Positions 40,676 to 49,203 of a stretch of 64,000 bases of DNA are shown here, one piece after another. Numbering within the stretch: position 1 is the stretch's first letter; every line of letters begins with the position of its first letter. The stretch comes from Halosimplex rubrum (GTDB taxonomy: Archaea; Halobacteriota; Halobacteria; Halobacteriales; Haloarculaceae). The DNA lies in assembly GCF_013415885.1 (NCBI RefSeq), contig NZ_CP058910.1, positions 4,092,001 through 4,156,000 on the forward strand, in the 5' to 3' direction. The translations under genes and the position numbers were made by a program. The notes under the pieces were generated by a model. It was not told the DNA's origin and ran no database searches. It was given only the letters and a program-made list of their open reading frames with translations.

Positions 40676-41364
40676 GTGTTCAGATAAGGATGAAGGGTGA
40701 GGCGGTACGTTTTCAAAGTGATCTATGCCCGAAAACGACCGCCTCGGTGGATGTTTGGACGAGATTGACTTAGAGTTTGTTGAACGCGAGGCGACACCGA
40801 AGCTGCTGATGAAGCTCAGTATTCAGCTGCATCTTGCTGGACTTTCGCTTTCGAATACTGTTTCGTTTCTTGAAGTATTCGGTGTCGACCGGGCACGATC
40901 CACCGTTCATAATTGGGTTCACAAGGCCGATCTACAGCCGGAGACTGGTCGCTCACCGGATCACGTTGCGGTCGACGAAACCGTGATCCAAATCGACGAC
41001 CAGCAATACTGGCTGTACGCAGCGGTCGATCCCGAATCGAACGAATTACTCCATACACGGCTTGAAACAACGAGAACAAACGCTCTCGCAGAACGGTTCT
41101 TCGGTGAGATTCGCCAGAAACACGATGTCGACGACGCCGTGTTTCTCGTCGATGGCGCTACCCCACTGAAAGAAGCCTGTCACCGACACGGCCTCGATTT
41201 CAGATACGAACGCCACGGAAATCGTAACAGTGTCGAACGTGTCTTTCGTGAAATAAAACGCCGTACCTCTTCGTTCTCAAACTGCTTCAGTCACGTCGAT
41301 CCAGAAACTGCCGCCGACTGGCTCAGATCATTCGCTTTCGCATGGAATCGGCTTATCTGAACAC
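40676..41364 (+). mobile_element. IS6-family-like insertion sequence, copy 1 (689 bp)
   Basis: Bounded by a perfect 13-bp inverted repeat, GTGTTCAGATAAG at 40676-40688 and its complement at 41352-41364. It contains one transposase gene, whose stop codon lies inside the right repeat. Base composition is much AT-richer than its surroundings. No 8-bp duplication touches the ends directly; a 9-bp repeat lies four bases outside each end. Inserted between the transglutaminase operon and the zinc-ribbon/tRNA-Phe region. Confidence 0.9.
40725..41360 (+). CDS. IS6-family-like DDE transposase (copy 1)
   Basis: 211 aa. N-terminal helix-turn-helix (LLMKLSIQLHLAGLSLSNTVSFLEVFGVDRARSTVHNWVHKADLQ), then the DDE residues: Asp in DHVAVDETVIQ, Asp in DAVFLVDGATPL, Glu in VERVFREIKRRT. 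Complete and apparently functional. About 77% identical (49 differences in 211, counted by eye) to the copy at 60399, so the two are not recent duplicates. Confidence 0.92.
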   Translation: MPENDRLGGCLDEIDLEFVEREATPKLLMKLSIQLHLAGLSLSNTVSFLEVFGVDRARSTVHNWVHKADLQPETGRSPDHVAVDETVIQIDDQQYWLYAAVDPESNELLHTRLETTRTNALAERFFGEIRQKHDVDDAVFLVDGATPLKEACHRHGLDFRYERHGNRNSVERVFREIKRRTSSFSNCFSHVDPETAADWLRSFAFAWNRLI

Positions 41365-46083: not shown

Positions 46084-46689
46084 TCAGAGACCGGCCCCGG
46101 CCGAGCGGCCGCGGTCGGCGTCGACGACCGCGTCGCAGACGATCCGGAACGTCTCGACGGTCTCGTCGTCGTGAGCCGCGGGATCCAGATGGAAGACGAC
46201 GACGCCGTCGACGCGTCGAGCCACCTCGCCGAGCGTGTAGACGAACTTGAACGCGGTCGGTTCGTCGACGTAGCCGAGCACGCCGGTCAGCGAGTGGACC
46301 GCGACGCCGACGCGGTCGCCGGCGTCGTCGGCCCGCTGGAGCACGTCGCTGACCCGGCGACCGATCGCCTCCAGATCCGTCGGGTCGACGACGCGTTCGA
46401 CCGGCACGGGACCGTCGGCGTCGGCCGTCTCCGTTGTCGAGCGCGTCGTCCGATCCACGTCCACGCACGCGGCGAGCGGCGGCCCGGTGTCGGCCTCGCG
46501 CTCCCACAGCGACAGCCACTCCGACGCCGGCTGAGAGATCGTGACCGGGACCGCCCGGTCGATCCGGTCGTCGAGACCGTCGAGAACGGTCAGACAGGCG
46601 TCCGTCGGCCGGTCGGACACGTCGGGAGCCAGCAACAGCACCGTCGTCGCGTCGCCGATATCCGCCGCTCCCCGGATGCGGACGGTCAC
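46084..46689 (-). CDS. degenerate KaiC/RecA-like haloarchaeal signalling protein (DUF7504-like)
   Basis: 201 aa from GTG. The start ATTVLLLAPDVSDRPTDACLTVLDGL sits where a P-loop would be but lacks the Gly-Lys-Ser/Thr. The second half, DRVGVAVHSLTGVLGYVDEPTAFKFVYTLGEVARRVDGVVVFHLDPAAHDDETVETFRIVCDAVV, is the conserved core of the haloarchaeal family I know as DUF7504. It probably binds partners rather than ATP. Lies divergent to the 46-aa membrane peptide across a 250-base AT-rich region with two inverted repeats. Confidence 0.65.
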   Translation of the reverse strand: MTVRIRGAADIGDATTVLLLAPDVSDRPTDACLTVLDGLDDRIDRAVPVTISQPASEWLSLWEREADTGPPLAACVDVDRTTRSTTETADADGPVPVERVVDPTDLEAIGRRVSDVLQRADDAGDRVGVAVHSLTGVLGYVDEPTAFKFVYTLGEVARRVDGVVVFHLDPAAHDDETVETFRIVCDAVVDADRGRSAGAGL

Positions 46690-46880: not shown

Positions 46881-46907
46881 AATTTATCCCGAACTTTTAG
46901 ATAAATT
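46881..46907. promoter_or_regulatory. inverted repeat 2 overlapping the peptide promoter
   Basis: AATTTATC-N11-GATAAATT, perfect 8-base arms, ending 32 bases before the ATG at 46940, exactly where a TATA box is expected. A protein bound here would control transcription of the peptide. Confidence 0.55.
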
Positions 46908-46939
46908 CAATCACAGACGGCCTGAATAAACACTTGGCT

Positions 46940-47080
46940 ATGAGCCAAGAATCAACGCGACTCCGCGAATTCCTCGAAGAGAACCCCAAATGGATCGGCG
47001 TCATGTTCAGCGCGCTGCTGCTGCTCTCGCAGGCCGGCTCGGTGACGGCCGCGTCCGGTGGTTCGCTGACCGGACCGTAG
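46940..47080 (+). CDS. 46-aa single-span membrane peptide (DUF7503-like)
   Basis: Charged amphipathic N-terminus (MSQESTRLREFLEENPKWIG), one hydrophobic helix (VMFSALLLLSQAGSVTA), and a small Gly/Ser tail (ASGGSLTGP). It resembles tiny haloarchaeal proteins I know as DUF7503, usually near signalling genes. The SVTAASGG stretch could be a signal-peptidase or protease site. Its stop lies two bases from the stop of the convergent CHAT gene, so the two transcripts must overlap unless one ends very sharply. Function unknown. Confidence 0.75.
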   Translation: MSQESTRLREFLEENPKWIGVMFSALLLLSQAGSVTAASGGSLTGP

Positions 47081-47082
47081 TT

Positions 47083-49203
47083 TCAGATATCGTTTAGTTC
47101 GCTGCTCCATCGCAGGGCACCATCGAACTCCACGGGGAGATCCTGTTTGTAGATGAAACTCCGCAGCTGTTCGTCGGATAACTCGTACTCGTCCATCTTA
47201 CCCGAGTTCATGTAGAATCGGTTGATGCCGTCTATCACCGGAGAGAAGACCGTCCCCATCGGTGTAGAGAGTGACGGGTATCCGTAGATAGAGACCCGAT
47301 ACTCGCTCGGATCCGGCCGATCGACCACGACCCGGTGCGGCGTCCCGGACTGGTTCTCGACGATCGACGCGCTCGCGTCGCCGACGACGAGGTAGTGGTG
47401 GCCGATCTGTTCGTACTCCTTGATGATCGAAACCGTGGCGGCGAGCGAAAAGCCCTGATTGAGCAGTTTCGCAGCGGTATGGCCGACTGAGGTGGCGGCC
47501 TCGTTGACGATGTCGGTGACCGTGGCGATGCCGGCCATGGCGCCGGCGTCGACGAGGCCGCGGCCCTGCTCGTAGGAGTCGCAGGCGTTGAGGAGGAACG
47601 CGCTGACGTTGACCTCCGAGAGGTGCCGGGTGTCGAGGTAGCCGTCGGCACAGCGGATCCCCTCGTCGTCGACGTGGCCGATGTAGTGGAGGAAATCGAT
47701 CTCCGACCGCAACAGTTCGCGCATCTCCATCGCGGTCAGTTGCTCGTGGGCTTCGATGCCGAACTCGATCCAGTCGCGCGTGCCGTAGATCTCGGAGACG
47801 ACGTTCTCGTCGGTCATCTCCTGGTCGTTGCAGACGACAGCGACCTGAATCTGGGGGTCGGTCGTCGGCTCGAACTCCAGCCGCCGGTAGTAGGCGTCGA
47901 CGGTCATCTTGCTCGCGCCGACCGGAAGCCCCTCGCCGACGTAGGCCTGCTCGATGCTGTCGGCGGGTTCGGGGCGGAAGATCTCGGAGGTCGCAGTCGA
48001 GGGCGACGACTCGGAGCGGGTCTGTGTCCGGGTACTCCGCCGGAGCGCCTCGGGGTTGTTTCTGAAGAAGGACTCGACCTGGTCGGTGAGTTCCTGCAGC
48101 GCTTCGTCGCGGGTTTCCTGAGAGTGCGGACAGCGGACGACGGCGAGTTCGTTCGCGAGGAACGGGAGCGCGCTGACGTTCGCGGCGTCGGGTCGCACGT
48201 CGGCGGTGAGCTTCCACTTGGGTACGACCTCGGCGACCGCGTCGAACGGCACGTCCAGATACGCCCGCAACTGCTCCGACAGGGGCCGCTCGTAGACGTC
48301 CGCGAAGTCCAGGTCGACCAGGGATTCGACCGCCGCCCGCTCGTGGAGGTCGACCTCGTAGTACCCTTCGGTGCGCGTGACGCAGTCCATGAGGAACACG
48401 TGTTTCAGCACGCGCTCGACTTCGGCCTCGAAGCCGTCGTCGCCGTCGAGCGGGAACGACCAGTCCTCGCCGGCGATCCGCGGCGACGGACCGGGTTCGA
48501 TCCGCGCACCCGTGTAGTACGCCAGCGGCACGACGGGGTAGATGTACTCCTCTATCGGCGGCACCTCGATGCCGACCCCCGTCTCCGGAGCGGCGATCGA
48601 GTCCGGTACGTCCAGCCGGTCGCCGAGCTCCACGAGCGGTGGATGGCCGCGTAGCGACGGGAACGACCGCTCGCAGCTGGTGGTCTTCAGCGCCGAACCG
48701 AGCGTCGAGAGCGCCCGCATCAGGTCCTCCGGCTGCTCGGTCGTCGTGACGGTCGCCGCCGGCTGTTCGTGGACCGACCGCGCGCCGACGTGGATCCGGT
48801 CGGTCTCGGAGAGTGCGATCCGAACGGTGTCTCCCATCGACGTGACTTCGATCCCGCCCTCGATGGCGAACTGGAGCTTGACCTGCGTCGTCGCCAGTTC
48901 GACGTTGTACCGGCCGGGCGGCACGCTGACGGACTCCTGGTCCGAGACCTCCGCGACGGTGTTCCCCTCGGCGTCGCGGATCCACAGCGGGACGAAGTAG
49001 GGCGTCTCGACGGCCGTGGTCCGCACGGTCGCGCCGGCGTCGGCGGGGAAGTAGAACTCGTCGGGGTCGCAGTCGTCGATCCCGGGCTCGTCGGGCGTCA
49101 ACAGCGAGAACTGGGTCTCCTGGATCGGGTCGGTAACCTGGATACCGTCGCGACTCGGATGCGGGCGGATCTGCGGTCGAGTGGCGTCCGGGTCGACGTT
49201 CAT
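47083..49203 (-). CDS. CHAT-domain (caspase-like) protein
   Basis: 706 aa. N-terminal beta-rich domain (about 1-145, including VPPGRYNVELATTQVKLQFAIEGG), a central helical region with a low-complexity linker (about 388-412), and a C-terminal CHAT protease fold. The probable catalytic dyad is His510 (FLHYIGHVDDEGIRCADGYL) and Cys541 (SAFLLNACDSYEQGRGLVDAGAMAGIATV), followed by the strand-helix pattern of the family (HHYLVVGDASASIV). CHAT proteases act in bacterial defence and cell-death systems, e.g. cutting gasdermins. Here the only partner candidates are the convergent membrane peptide and the DUF7504-like protein. Extra Cys residues are rare elsewhere. Confidence 0.8.
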   Translation of the reverse strand: MNVDPDATRPQIRPHPSRDGIQVTDPIQETQFSLLTPDEPGIDDCDPDEFYFPADAGATVRTTAVETPYFVPLWIRDAEGNTVAEVSDQESVSVPPGRYNVELATTQVKLQFAIEGGIEVTSMGDTVRIALSETDRIHVGARSVHEQPAATVTTTEQPEDLMRALSTLGSALKTTSCERSFPSLRGHPPLVELGDRLDVPDSIAAPETGVGIEVPPIEEYIYPVVPLAYYTGARIEPGPSPRIAGEDWSFPLDGDDGFEAEVERVLKHVFLMDCVTRTEGYYEVDLHERAAVESLVDLDFADVYERPLSEQLRAYLDVPFDAVAEVVPKWKLTADVRPDAANVSALPFLANELAVVRCPHSQETRDEALQELTDQVESFFRNNPEALRRSTRTQTRSESSPSTATSEIFRPEPADSIEQAYVGEGLPVGASKMTVDAYYRRLEFEPTTDPQIQVAVVCNDQEMTDENVVSEIYGTRDWIEFGIEAHEQLTAMEMRELLRSEIDFLHYIGHVDDEGIRCADGYLDTRHLSEVNVSAFLLNACDSYEQGRGLVDAGAMAGIATVTDIVNEAATSVGHTAAKLLNQGFSLAATVSIIKEYEQIGHHYLVVGDASASIVENQSGTPHRVVVDRPDPSEYRVSIYGYPSLSTPMGTVFSPVIDGINRFYMNSGKMDEYELSDEQLRSFIYKQDLPVEFDGALRWSSELNDI

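Follow-up and report, generated by a model that had tools for sequence, protein, structure and literature searches.

A convergent gene pair of a CHAT-type caspase-fold protein and a small tail-bearing partner in Halobacteria

The locus and its CHAT-type protein

The window, a stretch of 64,000 nucleotides from Halosimplex rubrum, holds two convergent ORFs of 46 and 706 codons whose stop codons (47078-47080 and 47083-47085) lie two bases apart, exactly as the original prediction had read them. The short ORF encodes a DUF7503 peptide, the long one a CHAT-type protein, and a genome search recovered one CHAT gene and one DUF7503 gene in this genome. The features of the locus, in window coordinates, are as follows:

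46084-46689, minus strand: DUF7504 gene with a KaiC/RecA-like predicted fold, likely a third component of the locus (PF24336, 97.8 bits against a curated cut-off of 27)
46890-46912, plus strand: AT-rich BRE/TATA-like element of the peptide gene, a putative promoter (72 aligned loci)
46940-47080, plus strand: DUF7503 peptide gene, 46 amino acids, MSQESTRLREFLEENPKWIGVMFSALLLLSQAGSVTAASGGSLTGP (ORF; PF24335, 59.4 bits against a curated cut-off of 27, E = 2.5e-16)
46982-46990, plus strand: Asn-Pro-Lys of the peptide's [HN]P[RK] motif, at the membrane boundary (family alignment)
46991-47053, plus strand: single hydrophobic helix of the peptide, residues 18-38 (sequence; kept in class A)
47054-47077, plus strand: C-terminal tail SGGSLTGP of the peptide, coevolving with CHAT (conservation and coevolution)
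47083-49203, minus strand: gene for the CHAT-type caspase-fold protein, 706 amino acids (ORF, homologues, AlphaFold2 fold)
47134-47268, minus strand: CHAT residues 646-690, C-terminal subdomain and putative tail docking site (replicated coevolution)
47356-48219, minus strand: caspase/gingipain/separase-fold region of CHAT, residues about 329-616 (VIA-align to gingipain R)
47581-47583, minus strand: CHAT Cys541, predicted catalytic Cys, motif LNACxS (invariant in 32/32)
47674-47676, minus strand: CHAT His510, predicted catalytic His, motif HYIGH (invariant in 32/32)

A match to an IS240-type DDE transposase lies about 6 kb from the pair (40725-41360, plus strand).

The larger protein is predicted to have the fold of a CHAT-, gingipain- and separase-type protease and is a putative protease in activity. 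An AlphaFold2 model, built with 32 homologues as input (pLDDT 87.7, pTM 0.87), matched many clan CD structures in Foldseek and VIA-align (Z 12-20.6), the highest score being that of gingipain R (20.6 over 239 residues), followed by SAVED-CHAT (17.8), separase (15.8), TPR-CHAT (about 13-14) and caspases (12). Six residues, His506, Gly509, His510, Asn539, Cys541 and Ser543, are invariant in the 32 homologues, down to 26% identity; they include both members of the His510-Cys541 dyad proposed earlier, the numbering of which is correct. At the sequence level, the protein had no Pfam match at E ≤ 1, no meaningful match in NCBIfam or PADLOC and no match in a search of the PDB. Its relatives are mostly 'hypothetical protein' in public records, with some plasmid records reading 'caspase family' or 'CHAT domain-containing'.

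Conservation of the pair, its tail carriers and its neighbours

CHAT relatives are encoded in 317/341 Halobacteria genomes and DUF7503 in 294/341. A small convergent partner sits beside 211 of 240 CHAT genes, mostly with overlapping or touching stops, and the other 29 have no recognised partner. In the best CHAT loci (30/30) the peptide gene converges on the CHAT 3' end, and the stop-to-stop distance falls between -17 and +17 nt in 29 of these 30. Twenty-six genomes, selected because their copies were numerous or divergent, gave 69 DUF7503 matches; 64 of these have a CHAT gene within 1 kb, and all 64 are convergent with it. Eighty named loci from many genera placed a peptide with 76/83 CHATs; a 4-nt overlap of the two genes was seen in 22 pairs and direct abutment in 20. 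Of 100 further CHATs, 94 have a convergent partner; genomes are partly shared among these four sets. Gaps of 50-300 nt between peptide and CHAT also occur. A convergent ORF ending in Gly-Pro within 20 nt accompanies 153/240 CHATs, compared with 4/2103 other long ORFs taken as a control from the same loci. The original prediction hinged on a conserved neighbourhood in other genomes, and the convergent pair is indeed kept across Halobacteria; the pairing is far stronger than could be known when it was proposed.

Several loci depart from the common layout. At L184 (12050-14720), a stretch of about 2.7 kb that holds other ORFs separates the peptide from its convergent CHAT, possibly through an insertion into a once-adjacent pair. 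A single DUF7503 match above the cut-off, at L172 in genome G173, has no CHAT inside 1 kb. Genomes G273, G173 and G124 carry CHAT expansions of 12 to 16 matches each, some of which are fragments of one gene. Outside Halobacteria, CHAT relatives were found in only four genomes of one family (L253-L256; G348, G357, G366 and G375); these distant proteins have no recognised partner, and their active-site motifs are altered or unrecognised, not all being intact.

In the DUF7503 peptides, here class A partners, the motif [YF]Lxx[HN]P[RK]M[IM]GVLF is followed by a hydrophobic helix, then by QAG and V/A-x-A, and lastly by a tail of variable sequence. In the [HN]P[RK] motif, Pro is present in 163/163 unique sequences and Arg or Lys in 162/163; the distance from this motif to the C terminus is 31-32 residues in 136/140 family members, and the C terminus is Gly-Pro in 145/163 unique sequences. 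Within the 240-CHAT set, 17 of 159 class A peptides end otherwise, and the Gly-Pro end has apparently been lost several times. Such tails (for example, GGTIR, GSTIG and SLGT) occur at L083-L088, L104, L128-L130, L201, L223, L225 and L245. The AT-rich element of the peptide gene lies about 28 to 43 nt upstream of the ATG.

Two lineages encode partners of other kinds. In Haloplanus (L212, L227 and L257-L262), the partner has the same gene start and no membrane segment, and runs on into a 13-residue unit, TADGNGGGISGPY or close variants, repeated in tandem 2-13 times; an ordinary DUF7503-type peptide is still present in the Haloplanus species at L263 and L264. Across 48 units, within-array pS was 0.43 and pN 0.002 (pN/pS about 0.005), and these common synonymous but near-absent amino acid changes indicate that each copy is under purifying selection. 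At L265-L294 and in 48 genomes of one family, which includes Natronococcus and was taken as Natrialbaceae (f3), the partner is a soluble protein of about 45 amino acids that ends in [IV]STYGGP (the RVSTYGGP form), usually after Lys-Arg. This protein is unrelated to the DUF7503 peptide, has no membrane segment and is convergent in 28/28 loci with a CHAT in range. The small partners of very divergent CHATs differ again and have nothing but the Gly-Pro end in common. In a FastTree phylogeny of 134 CHATs, Gly-Pro-ending partners fall on both sides of the deepest Halobacteria split; the Natrialbaceae type arose once, as did the Haloplanus type. The partner is therefore not always a membrane peptide, and the conserved element is its C-terminal tail. 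The membrane helix, noted originally in the peptide, is not what defines the partner: it is missing in Haloplanus and Natrialbaceae, which keep instead a short tail that usually ends in Gly-Pro. Cleavage at [HN]P[RK], an attractive idea because gingipain and separase are basic-specific, was rejected as a general mechanism, the motif being absent from the partners of these same two lineages.

DUF7504 adjoins CHAT in 52 of the 80 named loci, and all nearby copies lie on the CHAT strand, mostly just upstream of CHAT and, in 14 cases, beyond the peptide as in the window. No Walker A motif was evident by inspection of the window copy. HalOD1, which serves haloarchaeal signalling proteins as an output domain, is fused to some copies of DUF7504, and certain genera have HalX response regulators close by. 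In the window, the nearest genes checked, metX and DUF7504 among them, are not CRISPR genes, and clustering of neighbours across the 80 loci, from rough gene calls, gave no constant CRISPR gene. In Haloferax, the locus has constant neighbours and occupies the same chromosomal sites repeatedly.

This context bears on the proposal that the pair acts as a defence or programmed-death switch, for which it lends no support. The pair has no defence-system match in PADLOC, pattern scans of IMG/VR viral contigs found no CHAT or peptide relatives, and, within the limits of such scans, a virus-borne defence or counter-defence function was likewise rejected. A pair that is near-universal, occupies fixed sites in some genera and was found neither in viral contigs nor by PADLOC is more suggestive of core regulation than of defence, and the physiological output is probably stress or membrane signalling.

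Tail recognition and alternative readings

Coevolution between the two proteins was scored as mutual information with average-product correction over 17316 column pairs, covering CHAT from about residue 200 onwards, in a discovery set of 156 CHAT-peptide pairs and a replication set of 60 pairs drawn from 100 new loci, each <85% identical to any discovery pair. Strong couplings in the discovery set were mostly at tail columns. CHAT 656 with tail position -6 was the top pair in discovery and ranked 1 of 17316 in replication, where 654/-6 ranked second, 647/-3 fifth, 663/-4 sixth and 683/-8 fourteenth. For all 248 pairs, the maximum z was 11.5, against at most 7.5 in 40 runs of a local re-pairing null in which peptides were swapped between near neighbours. 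The block formed by CHAT 646-690 and tail -8 to -3 makes up 270/17316 cells and holds 11/38 couplings above z 4 (hypergeometric P = 9e-12, indicative only as cells are not independent). Replication was selective: only 6 of the top 20 discovery couplings reached z > 2, and none of the couplings that linked the Gly-Pro end to CHAT 419, 422 and 434 recurred in the 60-pair set. CHAT 646-690 showed no coupling to the peptide helix columns, and CHAT 691-706, the segment nearest the DNA junction, showed none to the tail; joint recombination of adjoining DNA would alone be a poor explanation of this pattern. Conserved convergence and replicated coevolution thus back the functional pairing of peptide and CHAT that was originally conjectured, and the covariation suggests that CHAT binds the partner tail through its C-terminal subdomain.

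The reading that we consider the most probable, with some reservation, is a dedicated and ancient pair of the Halobacteria in which the CHAT protease recognises the short C-terminal tail of its partner through residues 646-690. A cytosolic CHAT-type cysteine protease would recognise a tail of about eight residues, usually Gly-Pro-ending, on the protein encoded tail-to-tail with it, and the tail would rest against the C-terminal subdomain beside the caspase fold, presumably by direct binding. The tail would most likely serve as a substrate, with cleavage by CHAT, or as an activating or tethering ligand. In most species the tail sits on a one-helix membrane peptide, which may bring the protease to the membrane; Haloplanus would have multiplied the tail in tandem, and in Natrialbaceae a soluble carrier would have taken over. 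A regulatory signal probably reaches the pair through the KaiC-like DUF7504 protein encoded beside CHAT. This reading draws on computed evidence, namely convergent pairing, catalytic residues, fold, tail conservation, carrier replacement and replicated coevolution. Against it stand the limited replication of the discovery couplings, the 29 CHATs without a recognised partner and the 17 class A peptides without a Gly-Pro end. In addition, the usual membrane topology rules would put the class A tail outside the cell, and no export signal is present on CHAT. Export signals are also missing from the carriers of Haloplanus and Natrialbaceae, suggesting that the tail acts in the cytosol. More tentatively, and a shade less plausibly than not, this would be a new kind of protease-partner system, in which the recognised tail would have moved among unrelated carriers (membrane, soluble and tandem-repeat), always tail-to-tail with its own CHAT, such that each of several paralogous pairs in a cell would form a private and specific signalling line.

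Other readings account for part of these data. The partner may hold CHAT inactive in the manner of a securin or an antitoxin, its tail blocking the groove until loss or breakdown of the partner frees the protease. Such a role would suit a partner that has its own conserved promoter-like element and almost never occurs without CHAT, and tandem tails would raise inhibitor capacity; separase, a fold relative of CHAT, is held by a pseudosubstrate partner. However, the 29/240 CHATs without a recognised partner have intact catalytic residues where aligned, and the pairs are chromosomal and near-universal whereas addiction modules are patchy, so that inhibition appears unlikely. Peptide signalling is more doubtful still. 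Here the helix would be a signal peptide, processing at V/A-x-A would free a Gly-Pro tail of 8-9 residues, and CHAT would bind or process the tail later. V/A-x-A does lie directly before the class A tail, Lys-Arg directly before VSTYGGP, and the tandem units resemble multi-copy peptide precursors, but a signal peptide is lacking on the carriers of Haloplanus and Natrialbaceae, the residues of class A tails are mostly small and polar, and no transporter or receptor gene is a constant neighbour.

The constant orientation across the class, with stops that overlap by 4 nt or abut in many pairs, would also fit regulation at the RNA level, in which the two transcripts, overlapping at their 3' ends, would hinder one another or trigger mutual degradation. 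That scheme leaves unexplained the conservation of the tail as amino acids, its replacement in other carriers and its residue-specific coevolution with an internal CHAT segment, and some pairs are separated by gaps of 50 nt or more; we regard it as improbable. The least credible reading is a SecM-type ribosome-arrest signal formed by the terminal Gly-Pro. Ribosomes have difficulty with Gly-Pro immediately 5' of a stop codon, but there is no co-directional downstream gene to regulate, and the ribosome must pass up to 13 internal conserved copies in Haloplanus, each under purifying selection, on which ground arrest at Gly-Pro-stop was rejected. Recognition of the tail by the CHAT C-terminal subdomain remains our preferred reading.

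Comparison with known systems

No paper on DUF7503, on DUF7504, on their pairing with CHAT or on CHAT with haloarchaea was found in a literature search that reached few subscription papers. The present analysis gives a shared context and a specific predicted contact to two uncharacterised Pfam families, DUF7503 and DUF7504, and to a caspase-fold protein that is near-universal in this archaeal class yet unannotated, and the membrane, soluble and tandem-repeat carriers form a natural series that isolates the recognition element. Haloferax volcanii has strong, Asp-specific caspase-like activity, the gene for which is not known (PMC3615174). This activity is likewise haloarchaeal and caspase-like, and Haloferax species carry the CHAT-peptide pair; the CHAT family is a natural candidate to test for it, shared specificity not being implied. 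Genetics are available, since Haloferax volcanii has a DUF7503 gene and the pair is present in other Haloferax species.

By fold, the closest relatives in VIA-align are gingipains R and K and the separases, yet identity is 12-15%, and a convergent small partner with putative docking to a C-terminal subdomain was seen here only in the haloarchaeal family. The best Foldseek match, the SAVED-CHAT protein of type III CRISPR (PDB 8tl0), has the caspase-fold domain in common, but the haloarchaeal CHAT has no SAVED match, a different N-terminal architecture and no CRISPR genes noticed nearby. Bacterial gasdermin-protease modules, the analogy drawn originally, likewise place a caspase-like protease beside a small membrane-acting protein. 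Unlike these, the haloarchaeal partner, at 40-50 amino acids, lacks a gasdermin-type pore-forming domain, is convergent rather than operonic, and has no membrane segment in two lineages. Toxin-antitoxin systems encode a toxic and a neutralising product in a co-directional operon or an antisense pair; CHAT and its partner are convergent in every pair.

Other CHAT proteases that work with a dedicated partner protein are already known. Craspase, which combines the TPR-CHAT protein Csx29 with its substrate Csx30, likewise joins a CHAT protease to a dedicated, genetically linked protein partner. It differs from the haloarchaeal pair in that no RNA-guided Cas7-11/gRAMP was found among the genes checked at the locus described here, in that the haloarchaeal partner is convergent, short and defined by its tail, and in that this pair is near-universal in one archaeal class. 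A convergent, tail-defined CHAT partner is, as far as we can tell, new.
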